A stretch of DNA of 38,412 bases from a virus: positions 1 to 38,412 of IMG/VR virus record IMGVR_UViG_3300027773_000186; one strand, given 5' to 3'. The notes under the pieces were generated by a model. The model did no database searches. It was not told the DNA's origin and saw nothing but the letters and a program-made list of their open reading frames with translations. Positions 7,231 to 38,113 of this stretch are shown here, piece after piece. The position numbers and the translations under genes were made by a program. Numbering within the stretch: position 1 is the stretch's first letter; each line of letters opens with the position of its first letter.

Positions 7231-8273
7231 GCGACCACTGCCTCCTTCGTTTCACTGGCTTCGGTGGCTGACTGACGAATCTGGTCGAGCGCGTTGGTCA
7301 GCGTGCGGATGTTGATGTAGGTGCGGCCCCGCTCAAATGCGTCCTTCGTCACGGCCTGGTCAATGAGCTTTTCGACCAGCGCTGTGGCTTTTTCGGGCTG
7401 CATCGGCGCGAGCAGGGCGCCGATCTCACGGCGCACAATGCCGTGCGCTTCTTCCCGCAGCAGGCCGGGCAGTTTGACTTTGGCGATGATGCGCGAGTTC
7501 CACTGCTCCAGAGTGGCCGAGAAACGGTCGAATTTTTGTTTCAGGTCATGCGACCCGGCAAAGAGCAATGAAAAAAATGGCGGTTGGTCGAGCAGCTCGC
7601 GCAAAACCTCGAAGCACTCAATCTCCAGATGCTGGGCCTCATCCACTACGAGCAGCACGCGACGGTTCTGGAAATCGAAACGAATATTCGAGAGCATCCG
7701 GTCAATGTCATTCCCTGCCTGCGAGCCGCAGGCCGCGGCCACGCGCTTCATCAGATCGCGCGGGCGCAGGTTCTGCCGTGCGTAGACGTAATAGGCGCGA
7801 CGCCCATGTCCATTCTTTGCCAGCTCTTCCCGATTGAGCCGCGCAACCTCGTGCTCCAGCACAAAGCTCTTCTGCGATCCCGGAGGCGCATAGATCATAT
7901 AAGCGACCGGCTTTGGGAGGAGCTTCTGGAAGGTGTCACGGATCATGCGCACGTTCGCCGTGTCATATAGTTCGCCGACCACGCGGTGCGGCGGTTCTAT
8001 CGGGTGTGCGCGCATGTACTCATCAATGGCTTTGCGAATGCGCGCGTCATTGCCCGCGGCGGCGTGGTACATATCGCGCAGGTAGAAGCCGAGCGTGACG
8101 CCGGAATAGCCGATGCGGCGCGCGAAGTCATTCGGGTGCAGGCCCGCGCGCTGGATGTAGTCCTTGACCGCGACAATGTGATTGCGGCGCTCCCGGGCAT
8201 TTGCCTCCAGGCGCCGGCTGTTGTCGTTGTCAATCCGGCGAATACCGTATTCGCGGTGTTCCCCTTTCCTCAC
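7227..8273 (-). CDS. B: MuB-type AAA+ DNA transposition ATPase
   Basis: A 348-residue protein, close to the usual MuB length. MuB binds target DNA as an ATP-dependent filament, recruits MuA and gives target immunity. Domain order fits: N-terminal helix-turn-helix at about 36-66 (AVKDYIQRAGLHPNDFARRI), then the ATPase with Walker A APPGSQKS (129-136, Lys135) and Walker B VLLVVDEAQHL (206-216, Asp211-Glu212). The Walker A is a GxxGxGKS variant with Gln in place of the second Gly. A C-terminal helical domain follows. Translation starts at GTG 8273, overlapping the transposase stop as GTGA, so A and B are coupled as in Mu. Confidence 0.9.
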   Translation of the reverse strand: MRKGEHREYGIRRIDNDNSRRLEANARERRNHIVAVKDYIQRAGLHPNDFARRIGYSGVTLGFYLRDMYHAAAGNDARIRKAIDEYMRAHPIEPPHRVVGELYDTANVRMIRDTFQKLLPKPVAYMIYAPPGSQKSFVLEHEVARLNREELAKNGHGRRAYYVYARQNLRPRDLMKRVAAACGSQAGNDIDRMLSNIRFDFQNRRVLLVVDEAQHLEIECFEVLRELLDQPPFFSLLFAGSHDLKQKFDRFSATLEQWNSRIIAKVKLPGLLREEAHGIVRREIGALLAPMQPEKATALVEKLIDQAVTKDAFERGRTYINIRTLTNALDQIRQSATEASETKEAVVA

Positions 8274-10360
8274 TTGAGTGCCTCCAGAAAATTAGCTGCG
8301 ATATCGGCAGCCGACGGGGGCGCGGCTGCTTCAGGATCGGGTTTCAGTTTGGGAGCGCGGTGTGTCAGCGCGTTCTCTACGATGGGGGAAACCTTCGCGC
8401 GTTCAGCGAGCATCGCGACGGGGGGCCGCGCGCCATTTGCGCGCGCTGCGAGACTGATGCTGTCCAACGCATTGCGCACGGATTTTTCAAAGTGCCGGCG
8501 GTCTGCCATGCTCTCGCCAATCCGGCGCTGGATTTCTTTGTCGGCAGGATCGAATCCGATTCGCTCTTCAGCACGCGCCCAGCAAAGAAAATGCCCGCCG
8601 GCATCGAGAACTGCGACTCCGTCCGGATCGAGCGGATCGTAGGCCACGATGACCTCGCGCTCATTCATCTCGTGCAGGACATCGCGTGAGACTGCGTCGT
8701 AGTGGATGTAACGGCGTTTGTTCAGCTCGATGGCGCACTCGCGCACCTTGCGGCGCGTCTGCTCGGCAAGCAGGAGCGCAAGGGACTGGCTATCCAGACG
8801 TTGCGCGCCGCGCGCGGGATTCTGCTCCGATGCAAAGACTTCAGCCGGAGTGCGTCCGTCCATGCCTTCGCCGGAGTGCGGGCGCTGGTGATATTCTTCG
8901 ATCCATGCCATGCACAACGCGATGAAGACGCTTGCCGGGGGATGCAGCGACTCATCCACACGCCCATGCTTCATCAGCTTGCGGTGCATCTGCATTGCGG
9001 CAGATGTGGCATCCGGACGGAGGTGCGAAGCGCCTCCGGTGTAGTTCTGATAGAAACGCTTATCAAACTGCTGATGCAGGGTGCCGAAAAAGCGCTCCAC
9101 ATGCTTCGATTGCGGATGACGCACGATGCAATGCGTGACCTTGATGCCGAGCCGGGCCAGAATTCCCTGCTGTTCGATCTCGAGCATTTCGCGCTCATGC
9201 CAGCCGCGAATTTCTTCCGGGTCGGACAGATACGCAGGCAGCGCGCCTTTGGCAACCTTCAGGTAGTCCTTGCCGTTGTCGCAGTAGAAATGCTCGCATG
9301 GGCCATGCTGGGCGAATGCCCGGCGCATGGCTGTGGCAATCGAGCGCGAGCTGCCTTCCCACGCCCAGCTCGTGCCCACGACATAGCGCGAGCGGAAATC
9401 CAGCAGGCAGGTAAAGCGCAGCCGAATCGGCGCGCCATACGGCGCTTCGAAGAAGCAATCGTTCATCACCTCCACGTCATGGATCATGTGATCGCTGACC
9501 CATATCTGGTTGGCAAACACATCGCTGTAGCTGCGGCTGAGATACGGGGCCATGCGCTCCTGATATGCACGGCGGCCCTCGCGGGCATAAGTCCGGAGAG
9601 AAGGCGGCGCACTGGCCAGCCAGTTGCGGACGGTGTTGTAGCTCGGCAGTTGAGTCACGCCGAGCAGCTCCGCATCCTGAACAATCGCTTCGTGGCAGAC
9701 GCGATAACTCTGCCTGCAATTCAGGTAGAGATAGGCCGCCAGCGCAGCGGCCTTCGGGTGCTGCTGGAACCAGCGCGAAGTGTTCTTGTCCTCGCGTTGC
9801 TTGTCGGCCAGCGCTGGGAACCCACCATCGCGGTAACGCTTCAGCCAGAGTTTAACCGTGCGCTGAGAAATTCTGTGTGTCTCCGCCTGATACAGCACCA
9901 TGCGCGAGCGCGACGTGACCGCGCGGCCATCGCTGAGGCGAAGTTGCGCGTAGCGCTCCGGATTGTAATTGACGATGGGGTCGAGAACCGCAAGGCGCTG
10001 TTCTGCCTGCGCCTGGTCTTCCGGGTCGGGCAGCGTCACGCGCGCCAACGTGTCAGAGGGCTGACTGGTGAAGAGCGTAAGAGCGGCGGGTTGCGGTGCG
10101 CTCACGGATTGCTCCCCACCAGTCATCTTCCTGCGGGCCTCCGGCGGCAAGGACCCCGCAAGATATTCACGAATGCGACGGCCATTTCGCGCAAACTGGC
10201 CGGATTCACGCGAGACGATATTGCCAATCTCGGCTTGCTTCCGCAACCAACGGTCGCTCCAGCCTGTGACCGCCATCACTTGCTCAGTGGTCAGCCACTC
10301 ACCTGCCTGCTCCGGTGCCGTTGACGCAGGCAGAACGTAGATTGCCGCCTGCGCGCTCAT
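8270..10360 (-). CDS. A: MuA-type DDE transposase
   Basis: A 696-residue transposase that cuts and joins the prophage ends. The N-terminus has a MuA-like winged helix (EWLTTEQVMAVTGWSDRWLR, 21-40) followed by further end-binding helices including SQRTVKLWLKRYRDGGFPAL at 165-184. The RNase-H-like core carries the catalytic triad Asp290 (WVSDHM), Asp361 (YCDNGKDYL) and Glu422 (KHVERFFG). Spacing is 71 and 61 residues, similar to MuA (Asp269, Asp336, Glu392). The C-terminal domain should contact MuB. The ATG at 10360 has GGGGAGGA upstream and overlaps the previous stop as ATGA. Confidence 0.95.
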   Translation of the reverse strand: MSAQAAIYVLPASTAPEQAGEWLTTEQVMAVTGWSDRWLRKQAEIGNIVSRESGQFARNGRRIREYLAGSLPPEARRKMTGGEQSVSAPQPAALTLFTSQPSDTLARVTLPDPEDQAQAEQRLAVLDPIVNYNPERYAQLRLSDGRAVTSRSRMVLYQAETHRISQRTVKLWLKRYRDGGFPALADKQREDKNTSRWFQQHPKAAALAAYLYLNCRQSYRVCHEAIVQDAELLGVTQLPSYNTVRNWLASAPPSLRTYAREGRRAYQERMAPYLSRSYSDVFANQIWVSDHMIHDVEVMNDCFFEAPYGAPIRLRFTCLLDFRSRYVVGTSWAWEGSSRSIATAMRRAFAQHGPCEHFYCDNGKDYLKVAKGALPAYLSDPEEIRGWHEREMLEIEQQGILARLGIKVTHCIVRHPQSKHVERFFGTLHQQFDKRFYQNYTGGASHLRPDATSAAMQMHRKLMKHGRVDESLHPPASVFIALCMAWIEEYHQRPHSGEGMDGRTPAEVFASEQNPARGAQRLDSQSLALLLAEQTRRKVRECAIELNKRRYIHYDAVSRDVLHEMNEREVIVAYDPLDPDGVAVLDAGGHFLCWARAEERIGFDPADKEIQRRIGESMADRRHFEKSVRNALDSISLAARANGARPPVAMLAERAKVSPIVENALTHRAPKLKPDPEAAAPPSAADIAANFLEALK

Positions 10361-33470: not shown

Positions 33471-36400
33471 ATGCCGAACTCGTCCACCACTCCCGTCATT
33501 GATTCGAGCACAACCACCAGCTCGCCTGTGCCGCTTTCGTATGGCTATGTGTGGGCCACAGGCAAGCGCGCGGAATACTTCATGCTGCAAAACACGGGCA
33601 ACACCAGCCTCGATTTCACGCGCGTGGGCATCTGGTTGCTTGGCGAAGGCGAGTGGGACGGCTGCCATGAACTTTGGATCAATGACAACCTTGTCTGGCG
33701 CAGCGAGTGGGACGATCCGACGCAGTTTCATTTTCACCGCGGCACAGATGCGATCATCGGCTCCGGCCTCACTCCGTATTCTTCAGGGCCAGACCAGGGC
33801 GTAGACAGCTTCTTTTCATGGTTTCCTTCAGCGATTCAGCCGCTCTGCTACAGCCGCATGGCGTACTATGCGATCTTTCGCAAGCAGCCCATTCAGAACC
33901 AGACGAACAATCACCAGAACGATCCCACGCAGTGGACGGACATCAATCCGGTGGGCCTGTGGCGCGGGCTGCGCACGCGACTCTTCGACGACCAGGGCAA
34001 CATGACGGGATATGCCTTCAACACCAATCCCGCATGGCACTTTGTGGATGTGCTGCTGCGGCGGAAGCTGATGCCGGAGTTCAATATCAATTTCACAACG
34101 GGCATTGATGATCTCCCGCCTGCTGTGCGCGCCCGTTTTGACTGGGGTTCGATTTATGAATCGGCGCAGTATTTCGATCAGCTTCTCGCGAACGGACGCA
34201 GGCGCTTCACTGGCAATTATTCGTTCGCCTCGCAGACCACGCTCGCTGCCATCCTTGAGCAGATTCTGAAGTGCTGCCGCAGCTACATGCAGGAATATGC
34301 TGGCAAAATCTATCTTGTCTGCGACCAGCCGCGCCCATCGGTCTTTACCTTTTCGCGCGAGCACATCATGCCCGGATCGTTCGCGCCGAATGATAAGGCG
34401 CTCAACAGCGCTCCCAATTGTTATGTGGCGAAGTTCCGCGACCTGCTCGTGCCTGCCGCCGCCCAGATTGCCAGCATCACCTGCGCCGACCACTCAAATC
34501 CCGTCGTCAATACGGCGCAGCCGCATCCCTTCAATGCAGGCGACCGTATCGCCATCGGTGGAACAAACACCATCTACGATGGAACATGGACGGTTGCCAG
34601 CGTGCCTTCCGGCAGCGAAGCCACTTCGATGACGCTTGTCTCGAAAGGCTCGAATTATCCTGCGAACGTTGGCGCTGGTGGCAGCGTTGGCCTGCTCTAC
34701 TCGCGCTTCAAGGAACGTGCTCCACAATTCGACCATCAGTCCAACCAATACGCGCGTGGCGCAGTCGGAGTAGGGATTCCGCGTCAACGCAACCGCGTGC
34801 GCGTGGAATATGACTTTGCTGTTTCGACCTTCGATCAGGCCAGCAGAATCACAAGGTATGAGCGCGACAAGGCGCTGGGCCTTGACCAGACGCCTTACAT
34901 CACGCCTCGATTCATCACGTTGAAGGTGCCGCGCTTCGCGCGCGATGCTGCGGGCAGCGGGCGAGCTGCCGTGCAGATCATGCCCGGTGCGCGCATCACG
35001 ATTGATGACACCGCGAACTTTGCCTTTGCAGGCGATTATGAAGTGCTCAAACGAGTGGACTATCCTTACGTTGCGCAGCCATCTGGCGAAGGCGACACCA
35101 TCACGCTTACCGCAACAAACGACGGCGGCGAGATCGAGTTCGATCTCGGGCCGTACAACGAAGCGGTGATGTACGACGCGACCGACCCGAACTCAGCCGG
35201 ATGGAGCAATGTGCCTGGAAGCGATCCCGGCAACGACGGCAACTATACGGGCATTGAGCTTGCAGATAATGGCAAGCTCGCATTCCTCTCCGGCGCAATG
35301 CCCTCCGGCTCCACTTTTGATTTGCCTTCCACTGGCTTCAGTCCTGCAAATCTCATCGCGTGGGCCGGGCCGCAGGGGTACATCGAAAAGAACCATCCTA
35401 TGCACGTCATCCAGCTCTGCGATATTGACCAGAACCGTCGCGGCACGCTGAATTATGTAGACGGCAGCGGCAACATCTGGAACGGCGATATGAACGTCGC
35501 CGCCGTGACATGGATGGGCGACAGCAACGCTGCTTCGACCACGCAGGTAGGCGGGATTACCTACCTGTTGGCGACGCTCGCCGGCGGCGAGCAGATTTGC
35601 TTCGGCAAAGGCATTCTCGCAGATGGTTCCACCGTGCAATTGCCTGCGGGCTTCACTTCTTCACAGATGTTTGCCATCGCATTCCCGCACGATGCGGTGC
35701 CGAATAGCAATGACGCGCATGGCGTCGGCTCTTATGTGGACAGCTCTGGCGTGGTTCACCTGAATTATCAGGATGGCAGCGGAAACGTCTGGCACGGCAA
35801 CGCCACCGTGCTCATCTTCGCGTGGAAGAACAATTCCGGCCAGGTCACGACGCAGACAGTCGGCCCGGGCAAGTGGATGCTCTATCAAACTTCGACAGGA
35901 TTCACGCTGGGCGTTGGGATGGCGACGCTTGCGGACAGCACCTCCAATTCAAGTTCTGTATTTCAGCTTCCAAGCGCGGCAGGTGCGGCAAATTCGCTGC
36001 AACTCATCACTTCGCCCCATGACTTTCAGATTGTGGACCATCCTGCCCACGGTGTGGGGGCGTGCTATATAGATGCGAATCTCAAGCCGCACATGATGTT
36101 TGAAGATGGCGAAGGCAATGTGTGGTATGGCGATCTCGATGTCTTCGGGTTATTTTATGAGCCGACTGGCGGGAGCGGCCAAAGCGCGGGCGGCATCAGC
36201 GTGACCGTCTCGCCAGCGGGCATGACTGTGCCACTGAGTGGAACGCAGCAATATTCTGCGTATGTTTCCGGCACTTCCAATACCGTTGTGACGTGGAGCG
36301 TGGATGGCGTTGCAGGCGGCAACAGCACAGTTGGCACCATTGACTCGACGGGCCTTTACACCGCGCCATCTACCTCCGGCACACACATCATCCGCGCCAC

Positions 36401-37196
36401 CAGCCAGGCAAACACAGCGGCCTACGGTCAGCAGCTCGTGACTGTTGGCACCGGCTCATCGAGCGGCAATGGAAGCGGCATTACTGTGACTGTTTCTCCG
36501 CTGAGCGCAAGCCTGTCGCCTGGTCTACAGGAGCAATTCAGCGCATCTGTTTCCGGCACTTCCAATACCGTGGTGACGTGGAGCGTGGACGGCATTGTTG
36601 GCGGTAACAGCAGCGTCGGTACAGTAGATTCGACGGGGCTGTACACTGCGCCCAACGTCACCGGATCGCATCGGGTCATTGCGACGAGCCAAGCCAATAG
36701 CTCTGCTGCGGGTTCGGCAAGCGTGACTGTTGGGACTGGTGGTTACGGCGGCGGTGGTGGCGGCACGGACTGCACGGTCCGCGGCACGCTGCTCGACACA
36801 CCAGAAGGACGCATCTCCAATGAAGTGCTCAAAGCAAAGTTCGATGCGGGCGAGAAAATCTTCCTAAAGTCGCGCTACGGCATCGAAGAAATCGTAGCTG
36901 CGTGGTGGGTCTGGGTTGACAATTATCAGTGGGTGGAGATTGAGGGACATGAGGGCTTCGGCTCCTCTGACTCATGCACTCTGCGTCCGCGCGACGGTGA
37001 GCATCGCTGGTGCTCACTCATCGAAAACGGCACCGAAGTCGAAACCGAAAAAGGATGGCGCAGAATGCAACGGCGGCAGATCAATGAGCGTGTTGAGGTG
37101 CTGCACATCCAGCTTGCGGGGCCATCGCACGAGTACTTGGTGGGCGGCGTGTGGACGCATAATATCATCAAGCAGCAGCAGCCAAATACGCTGTAA
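33471..37196 (+). CDS. Large tail-tip protein with tandem Ig-like domains and C-terminal Hint (intein-like) domain
   Basis: A 1241-residue protein. Residues 1-560 are the tail-tip core, gpJ-like by place and size, with an inserted beta module at about 335-408 (HPFNAGDRIAIGGTNTIYDG). Residues 590-898 contain three repeats of about 105 residues marked by YVDGSGNIWNGDMNV (662), YQDGSGNVWHGNATV (766) and FEDGEGNVWYGDLDV (877). Two Ig-like (Big) domains span about 908-992 and 1003-1088. After a GGGGGG linker, residues 1101-1231 are a Hint domain: Cys1101 at block A (CTVRGTLLDTPEG), His1178 (DGEHRW), the GWRRM segment, and block F/G EVLHIQLAGPSHEYLVGG then VWTHN, ending His1230-Asn1231. Ten residues follow (IIKQQQPNTL). 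Autocleavage is therefore predicted. Confidence 0.82.
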   Translation: MPNSSTTPVIDSSTTTSSPVPLSYGYVWATGKRAEYFMLQNTGNTSLDFTRVGIWLLGEGEWDGCHELWINDNLVWRSEWDDPTQFHFHRGTDAIIGSGLTPYSSGPDQGVDSFFSWFPSAIQPLCYSRMAYYAIFRKQPIQNQTNNHQNDPTQWTDINPVGLWRGLRTRLFDDQGNMTGYAFNTNPAWHFVDVLLRRKLMPEFNINFTTGIDDLPPAVRARFDWGSIYESAQYFDQLLANGRRRFTGNYSFASQTTLAAILEQILKCCRSYMQEYAGKIYLVCDQPRPSVFTFSREHIMPGSFAPNDKALNSAPNCYVAKFRDLLVPAAAQIASITCADHSNPVVNTAQPHPFNAGDRIAIGGTNTIYDGTWTVASVPSGSEATSMTLVSKGSNYPANVGAGGSVGLLYSRFKERAPQFDHQSNQYARGAVGVGIPRQRNRVRVEYDFAVSTFDQASRITRYERDKALGLDQTPYITPRFITLKVPRFARDAAGSGRAAVQIMPGARITIDDTANFAFAGDYEVLKRVDYPYVAQPSGEGDTITLTATNDGGEIEFDLGPYNEAVMYDATDPNSAGWSNVPGSDPGNDGNYTGIELADNGKLAFLSGAMPSGSTFDLPSTGFSPANLIAWAGPQGYIEKNHPMHVIQLCDIDQNRRGTLNYVDGSGNIWNGDMNVAAVTWMGDSNAASTTQVGGITYLLATLAGGEQICFGKGILADGSTVQLPAGFTSSQMFAIAFPHDAVPNSNDAHGVGSYVDSSGVVHLNYQDGSGNVWHGNATVLIFAWKNNSGQVTTQTVGPGKWMLYQTSTGFTLGVGMATLADSTSNSSSVFQLPSAAGAANSLQLITSPHDFQIVDHPAHGVGACYIDANLKPHMMFEDGEGNVWYGDLDVFGLFYEPTGGSGQSAGGISVTVSPAGMTVPLSGTQQYSAYVSGTSNTVVTWSVDGVAGGNSTVGTIDSTGLYTAPSTSGTHIIRATSQANTAAYGQQLVTVGTGSSSGNGSGITVTVSPLSASLSPGLQEQFSASVSGTSNTVVTWSVDGIVGGNSSVGTVDSTGLYTAPNVTGSHRVIATSQANSSAAGSASVTVGTGGYGGGGGGTDCTVRGTLLDTPEGRISNEVLKAKFDAGEKIFLKSRYGIEEIVAAWWVWVDNYQWVEIEGHEGFGSSDSCTLRPRDGEHRWCSLIENGTEVETEKGWRRMQRRQINERVEVLHIQLAGPSHEYLVGGVWTHNIIKQQQPNTL
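36190..36735 (+). repeat. Tandem Ig-like domain repeat (285-bp period)
   Basis: GTTTCCGGCACTTCCAATAC begins at 36264 and again at 36549, exactly 285 bp (95 codons) apart, and both copies continue with near-identical sequence encoding VVTWSVDG, GGNS-VGT-DSTGLYTAP and RATSQAN/ATSQAN. These are bacterial Ig-like domains of a style common in Acidobacteria surface proteins, suggesting duplication after acquisition from the host pool. Confidence 0.8.
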
Positions 37197-37488: not shown

Positions 37489-37874
37489 CATGGCAGCAGG
37501 CTCGAAAAGACGCGGAGTTTAGGCTCCGCGCTTTTCTTGAGCGTGTTATTCGTGAAGGCCGCGATGCACGCGAAGTGCAGACCACACTTCCTCTATACGA
37601 AGAAGAGAAAATGCTGGAAGCAATGGAGCCGGGGAACAAGTGGCCGCTTCAGTACCACCAGCAGGTCACTCGTGCGGCCATGCGCATTCTGCGTACCCAC
37701 AAGTTTCCTGTGAGCATTGTGCGGCTGACAGAAGATGATTACATGCAATGGCTTGATGGACAGACAGACACGTCAGAGATGCGGCAACAATTCGTAAGAG
37801 AGAAACTGGGCCATGGTTCGATACAGCGAGAAATGGGATTTGGCGAGCATTCCGGACGACATCTGGTTTCGTGA
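37485..37874 (+). CDS. Hypothetical right-end protein
   Basis: A 129-residue soluble, helical protein: TWQQARKDAEFRLRAFLERV, REGRDAREVQTTLPLYEEEK, PLQYHQQVTRAAMRILRTHK and FPVSIVRLTEDDYMQWL. I recognise no family. The last 20 residues (SIQREMGFGEHSGRHLVS) overlap the next gene out of frame and look less protein-like, so its natural end may have been closer to 37800. It belongs to the right-end operon, the position where Mu carries mom/com, but no Mom similarity is seen. Confidence 0.5.
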   Translation: MTWQQARKDAEFRLRAFLERVIREGRDAREVQTTLPLYEEEKMLEAMEPGNKWPLQYHQQVTRAAMRILRTHKFPVSIVRLTEDDYMQWLDGQTDTSEMRQQFVREKLGHGSIQREMGFGEHSGRHLVS

Positions 37875-38025
37875 AAACGGACGCCGGATCGCCGCGCGGC
37901 GGCAACGTCACAGTGGCGGGAGACCGGCCAAACTTTCCCCATGCAAATACTGTCGGAGAGAGATGTCTGCAAGGGAGCTTCGTAGTCACCAGCCGCACTG
38001 CCAGCAACACCCCAAAAACACCTGA
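37813..38025 (+). CDS. Small zinc-finger protein at the right end
   Basis: A 70-residue protein: MVRYSEKWDLASIPDDIWFR, ENGRRIAARRQRHSGGRPAK, then SPCKYCRREMSARELRSHQP and HCQQHPKN. The CxxC-x12-H-x3-HC-type finger plus an arginine-rich stretch suggests nucleic-acid binding. It overlaps the previous gene by 62 bp in another frame; a weak GAGAGAAA precedes ATG 37813. Mu Com, also a small zinc-finger protein at the right end, controls mom translation, but this sequence is not recognisably Com. It is the last gene before the predicted prophage end. Confidence 0.55.
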   Translation: MVRYSEKWDLASIPDDIWFRENGRRIAARRQRHSGGRPAKLSPCKYCRREMSARELRSHQPHCQQHPKNT

Positions 38026-38041
38026 ATTTATACAAAAAATG

Positions 38042-38113
38042 GAATCTCAGAATTATTTTGCACTACTGGTGCAAAATAATTCTGAGATTCAGTGAAAAAT
38101 AATTCTGCGAGCC
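38042..38113. repeat. Three copies of a 22-bp motif, predicted transposase end sites
   Basis: A 22-bp motif with core AAAATAATTCTGAGA occurs inverted at 38042-38063 and direct at 38069-38090, making a perfect palindrome with a TACTG loop. A third copy, 18 of 22 identical, lies at 38092-38113, 23 bp after the second. Two direct copies about 22 bp apart next to the end resemble R1/R2 of Mu. The palindrome could also act as a terminator but has no T-tract. Confidence 0.65.

Follow-up and report, generated by a model that had tools for sequence, protein, structure and literature searches.

Does the tail-tip protein encoded at this locus end in a self-processing Hint domain, and what may such a domain do at the receptor-facing end of a tail? 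The window, meaning the whole stretch of DNA that was analyzed, corresponds to a single virus record of 38,412 bases whose plus strand carries Mu-type head genes, the tape measure gene, and tail genes. The presence of a Mu-like transposase gene makes it probable that the phage is a transposable siphovirus. The last large gene of the window, located downstream of the tape measure and minor tail genes, encodes a protein weakly similar to phrog_1727 (“tail protein and host specificity”) and to the NF040662 TipJ family. An initial annotation had assigned a Hint domain to its C terminus, preceded by two Ig-like domains, and the latter were recovered as Big_2 domains. The features needed here are as follows.

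8270-10360, minus strand: Mu-like transposase (phrog_310, E=5e-94).
33471..37196, plus strand: tail-tip (TipJ/J-like) protein of 1241 aa with a C-terminal Hint domain, assigned by the ORF, its weak matches, and the gene position.
36246..36728, plus strand: two Big_2 Ig-like domains, approximately residues 926-1086 (PF02368, E=4e-8, two stretches, best 1006-1080); the limits of the first domain are approximate.
36729..36770, plus strand: Gly-rich linker, residues 1087-1100, from the translation; a Hint-less homolog, L006, ends immediately upstream of it.
36771..37163, plus strand: Hint domain of 131 residues, 1101-1231 (Cys1101 to Asn1231), the codon of Cys1101 starting at nucleotide 36771; AlphaFold2 pLDDT 73.7, VIA Z 14.4 to the VidaL intein, hhalign E=1e-8.
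36966..36977, plus strand: block B, S1166-D-S-C1169, with Cys replacing the conserved His, from the alignments of the family and of tail Hints.
37158..37163, plus strand: His1230-Asn1231 of block G with predicted cleavage after Asn1231; invariant in all members, residue 143 of the model lying on the terminal Asn of inteins.
37164..37193, plus strand: C-terminal tail IIKQQQPNTL, 10 residues, predicted to be released; 4 of 10 positions identical to the relative L002, dN/dS about 1.1 (ten codons only); the tails of the relatives vary.

Searches of the Hint region against Pfam, PHROGs, NCBIfam, and PDB sequences gave no Hint match (Pfam and NCBIfam at E<=1), and PF13403 had zero matches to the window at E<=10. 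The domain was detectable by profile-profile comparison and structure only, not by curated Hint or intein profiles. A tblastn search against phages yielded weak matches that began at the equivalent Cys, in Hint-bearing tail proteins and in the UvsX intein of an Erwinia phage, and the plasmid and phage collections returned weak matches only, those from phages pointing to tail-protein Hints. When six family members were compared with five phage Hints by hhalign, the alignment spanned Cys1 to His-Asn with E=1e-8. An AlphaFold2 model built from the window and contig sequences only had a pLDDT of 73.7 (59.9 with two input sequences) and was aligned by VIA with the VidaL intein over 132 residues at 2.6 Å (Z 14.4), followed by the Mtu RecA intein (Z 13.7), the BIL domain of C. 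thermocellum (2lwy, Z 13.2), and Hedgehog (1at0, Z 11.9). Among the structure matches listed, 50 of 50 were Hint proteins, and the predicted fold was the Hint beta horseshoe. In several inteins, the terminal Asn coincided with Asn1231 of the model. The assignment of Cys1 rests on the sequence alignments because the N terminus of the model was weak (pLDDT about 50) and its first aligned residue was off by one.

The Hint reading is supported because structure prediction, profile comparison, and homologs concur; residues 1101-1231 are a real but diverged Hint domain. A chance resemblance is countered by five further distinct homologs that share the blocks and by the predicted fold. The check by profile and fold proposed with the initial annotation came out in two halves: no curated Hint profile matched, and the predicted fold was nevertheless that of a Hint domain, with Z scores up to 14.4.

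The catalytic residues were assigned from the alignments. Block A, CTVRGTLLDTPEG, contains the nucleophile Cys1101, which was invariant in the family alignment, and block F/G, SHEYLVGGVWTHN, ends at His1230-Asn1231, exactly 10 residues before the end of the protein; both blocks had been read correctly before. Cys1, Thr2, and the terminal His-Asn were invariant in six distinct sequences, down to 39% identity to the window. Block B had been placed at DGEHRW with His1178, but this segment aligned with the strand after block B (GDEQQRWC in relatives), and the GW segment that had also been cited is not a Hint signature. The actual block B, immediately before TL, reads SDSC in the window and L002, whereas four distinct relatives have S-x-[ST]-H-TL with the His retained (SATH, SGSH); S1166-D-S-C1169-TL of the window aligned with TPEHP of canonical tail Hints. 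A TxxH motif is absent from the window protein and from L002, which have Cys1169 in place of the His.

The block-B His is the most conserved catalytic His of Hint domains and is essential in many inteins. A small subset of known inteins lacks it (PMC6333167, PMC7664689) and uses compensation (PMC7664689). In one studied intein, a bulky residue at −1, such as Leu, His, or Phe, compensates for its absence, Asp not being among the compensating −1 residues demonstrated (PMC6333167). The −1 residue of the window is Asp1100, the last residue of the linker, whereas L002 has His at this position, which is no more than suggestive of a compensation of this kind. The missing His lowers the claim of activity and not that of the fold, and its loss may weaken N-terminal cleavage in the window lineage. 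A second Cys residue, Cys1181 (window 37011-37013, in an RWC or RPC context), was invariant in six of six family members; a redox partnership with Cys1101 is conceivable.

The Hint family comprised six distinct members on seven contigs, the window included, all of them metagenomic; in two scans covering 84,980 prokaryote species genomes, zero relatives passed confirmation. The window and L002 represent one tail-tip scaffold. In L026 (=L021), L049, L050 (=L063; E=6e-24 to TipJ), and L053, the Hint is attached to a second J-like scaffold and is 39 to 51% identical to the window Hint. Outside the Hint domain, the two scaffolds were not significantly similar by blastp (best E 0.07), and a Gly-rich linker precedes the Hint in both. 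The L006 tail tip is 63% identical to that of the window and shares both of its Ig domains; it ends short of the linker and lacks the Hint. On the second scaffold, the Hint was present in 4 of 12 distinct proteins; the other eight ended in Gly-rich or Pro-rich tails or in an Ig-like domain. The tree of this scaffold needs three changes of the Hint label, with which a single gain followed by later losses would also be compatible. In the simplest reading, the Hint domain is an optional cassette, exchangeable at the C terminus and attached through a flexible linker.

This distribution also bears on the possibility of a true splicing intein near the 3' end of the tail-tip gene, which would rejoin the 10-residue tail to the protein. 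Such an intein would account for Cys1 and His-Asn, and the Erwinia UvsX intein aligned weakly from Cys1. Canonical splicing is unlikely because the residue at +1 was never Cys, Ser, or Thr: the members have I, V, K, W, M, and M, with Ile1232 in the window. The Hint-less allele in L006 lacks linker, Hint, and tail together, its flanks not being joined, and the 10-residue tail is not a conserved, functional C-extein. The window domain shares fold, Cys1, and His-Asn with class 1 inteins (VidaL, Mtu RecA, gp41-1) but has no +1 nucleophile, no C-extein, and no joined intein-free allele. Assignment to class 1 was rejected for these reasons, and a splicing intein of any kind would come as a considerable surprise. 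Class 3 inteins have no Cys1 and a Trp/Cys/Thr motif with a Cys in block F. The window Hint possesses Cys1, and its block F, VLHIQL, contains no Cys, which rejects this class as well.

Between the window and L002, dN/dS was 0.05 over the tail tip and 0.13 over the Hint, and it reached about 1.1 in the tail after Asn1231, the last value being based on ten codons only. The Hints of the second scaffold had 0.16 to 0.38 where estimable. Purifying selection acts on the Hint domain but not on the 10-residue tail, again judged from ten codons only. In the relatives, the residues after Asn amounted to 4 to 13 and varied in sequence. The tail is not entirely free to vary because a Lys residue was present within three residues after Asn in six of six members.

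These data need to be weighed against a Hint domain that is catalytically dead, either at its N-terminal junction or altogether, and kept as a structural or adhesive end domain. The replacement of the block-B His by Cys in the window and L002 would agree with this, as would the Hint-less homologs, which bear an Ig-like domain or short tails at this site and indicate that it accepts plain binding domains. The invariance of Cys1, Thr2, and His-Asn in the six distinct sequences speaks against a dead domain, relatives with an intact block B occupy the equivalent position, and the stretch following Asn differs in length and sequence between members, which is expected of a discarded piece. A dead Hint domain is regarded as rather unlikely, albeit worth keeping in view.

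The reading that is considered somewhat probable is that of a diverged BIL-like, non-splicing but self-cleaving Hint domain, fused by a linker to the C terminus of the tail tip as an optional cassette. The retained residues are, we infer, best explained by trimming of the tail or by self-release. BIL domains without a +1 nucleophile mostly cleave and do not splice (PMC7664689, PMC7765530). After folding of the Hint domain, Asn1231 would cyclize and free the 10-residue tail, while Cys1101 would convert the peptide bond between Asp1100 and Cys1101 into a thioester, which could then be hydrolyzed or thiolyzed. The N-terminal cut would possibly be slow in the window lineage, with Cys1169 at the position of the block-B His. 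Once the Hint was shed, the tail tip would be left with a Gly-rich linker end, much like the Hint-less homologs. A self-removing domain should be easily lost, and its maintenance on two scaffolds needs some benefit. By analogy, a role as a transient C-terminal cap or in a maturation step of the receptor-facing tail end appears most likely. The papers searched contained no observed cleavage for such tail-tip Hints.

The thioester might also react with a nucleophile of a second virion protein or of the host surface, resulting in a covalent bond as in a Hedgehog-like transfer. This chemistry is open to any Hint domain with Cys1, the C-terminal placement resembles that of Hedgehog, which was among the structure matches, and a Gly-rich linker would be an accessible acyl donor. 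There is, however, no adduct-recognition domain in the protein, which stops 10 residues past Asn1231 and was rejected as a Hedgehog (Hog) domain for this reason. Inspection by eye of the regions downstream revealed no partner gene that was restricted to contigs with the Hint, and the large gene 3' of the second-scaffold tail tip was present with and without the Hint. Conservation of His-Asn also argues against a transfer, because Hedgehog transfer does not require these residues, whereas C-terminal cleavage does. The covalent attachment to another molecule considered in the initial annotation found no specific support here, and a transfer of this type is improbable. Even less expected would be that the exchange of the block-B His for Cys1169 stalls the reaction at a long-lived acyl-thioester, on Cys1101 or handed over to Cys1169, giving a virion tail tip with a loaded thioester for covalent coupling to the host surface, triggered by thiols or contact. 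If this were true, the tail tip would be a covalent, chemically armed phage adhesin.

A PT-HINT domain for the release of a polymorphic toxin was also considered, since pretoxin Hint domains adjoin C-terminal toxins. A Ruminococcus phage protein does show such an arrangement (L010, 2092-3789): its Hint is internal, followed by a further domain, and pretoxin-like, unlike the C-terminal tail Hints. The window Hint is followed by just 10 residues and those of the relatives by 4 to 13, and PF07591 (pretoxin) was absent from the tail-tip protein in the Pfam search. This anatomy, with no toxin domain after the Hint, refutes a pretoxin for the window gene and leaves this explanation with next to no probability.

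A-type BIL domains share the Hint fold (CthBIL, 2lwy), Cys1, the terminal His-Asn, and the lack of a +1 nucleophile. They are sited in variable regions of variable proteins, and the window Hint is likewise present or absent on both scaffolds. In contrast to them, the window domain was not recognized by Pfam Hint models, has Cys at the block-B His in its lineage, and is located at the extreme C terminus of a phage tail tip with only a short tail; its autocleavage is a prediction. The survey of phage tail proteins suggested with the initial annotation revealed the same C-terminal fusion in the metagenomic relatives and in more than 50 annotated phage records, mostly from Erwinia jumbo phages but also from Dickeya and Yersinia phages, Alcaligenes phage Afa-NA1, and phage NCTB (“contains intein domain”). 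The virion or tail proteins of these phages also end in a Hint domain with His-Asn and about 8 to 14 further residues. Their profile is similar to that of the window family (E=1e-8) at only about 17 to 24% identity, and they differ by a canonical TxxH block B, a position after collagen-like and PKD-like fiber parts, and often Thr at +1. The jumbo-phage tail Hints L029-L044 had Thr at +1 and the conserved tail TDIVAKAEK-; they could be capable of splicing, unlike the window family. In phage NCTB, a stand-alone gene for a 153-aa Hint-like protein with no obvious Cys1 (L009, 3429-3890) adjoins the Hint-ended tail protein.

A removable C-terminal domain has a precedent in the T5 pb1 tail fiber, which possesses a self-cleaved C-terminal chaperone domain (PMC4690869). 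The proposed role, autocatalytic removal of a C-terminal domain from a receptor-binding tail part, would be the same, whereas the pb1-type domains are trimeric and unrelated in fold and chemistry, and no such Pfam match was present in the window protein.

Tail proteins ending in a Hint are already known in databases; the window family adds a new variant, altered in block B, that profile searches miss. The literature searched, with subscription journals and preprints mostly outside its coverage, contained no paper on the function of phage tail C-terminal Hints and none describing siphophage tail-tip Hints. The Hint would be an exchangeable end cassette of tail-tip receptor-binding proteins that was overlooked by the profile libraries searched. 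If cleavage is real, Hint chemistry would represent a route of tail-tip maturation beside self-cleaved chaperone domains. The natural exchange of the block-B His for Cys, with close relatives that bear the His, provides a clean test of how Hint domains cope without this residue.

Two further observations concern the right end of the window. A small protein with a CxxC...H...H pattern is encoded at 37813-38025 and is kept in L002 (7313-7525). At 38042-38110, a 22-nt perfect inverted repeat is accompanied by a third copy of the motif TCAGAATTATTTTGCAC, for which 0.08 chance matches were expected; these repeats are possibly transposase-binding end sites or a terminator.
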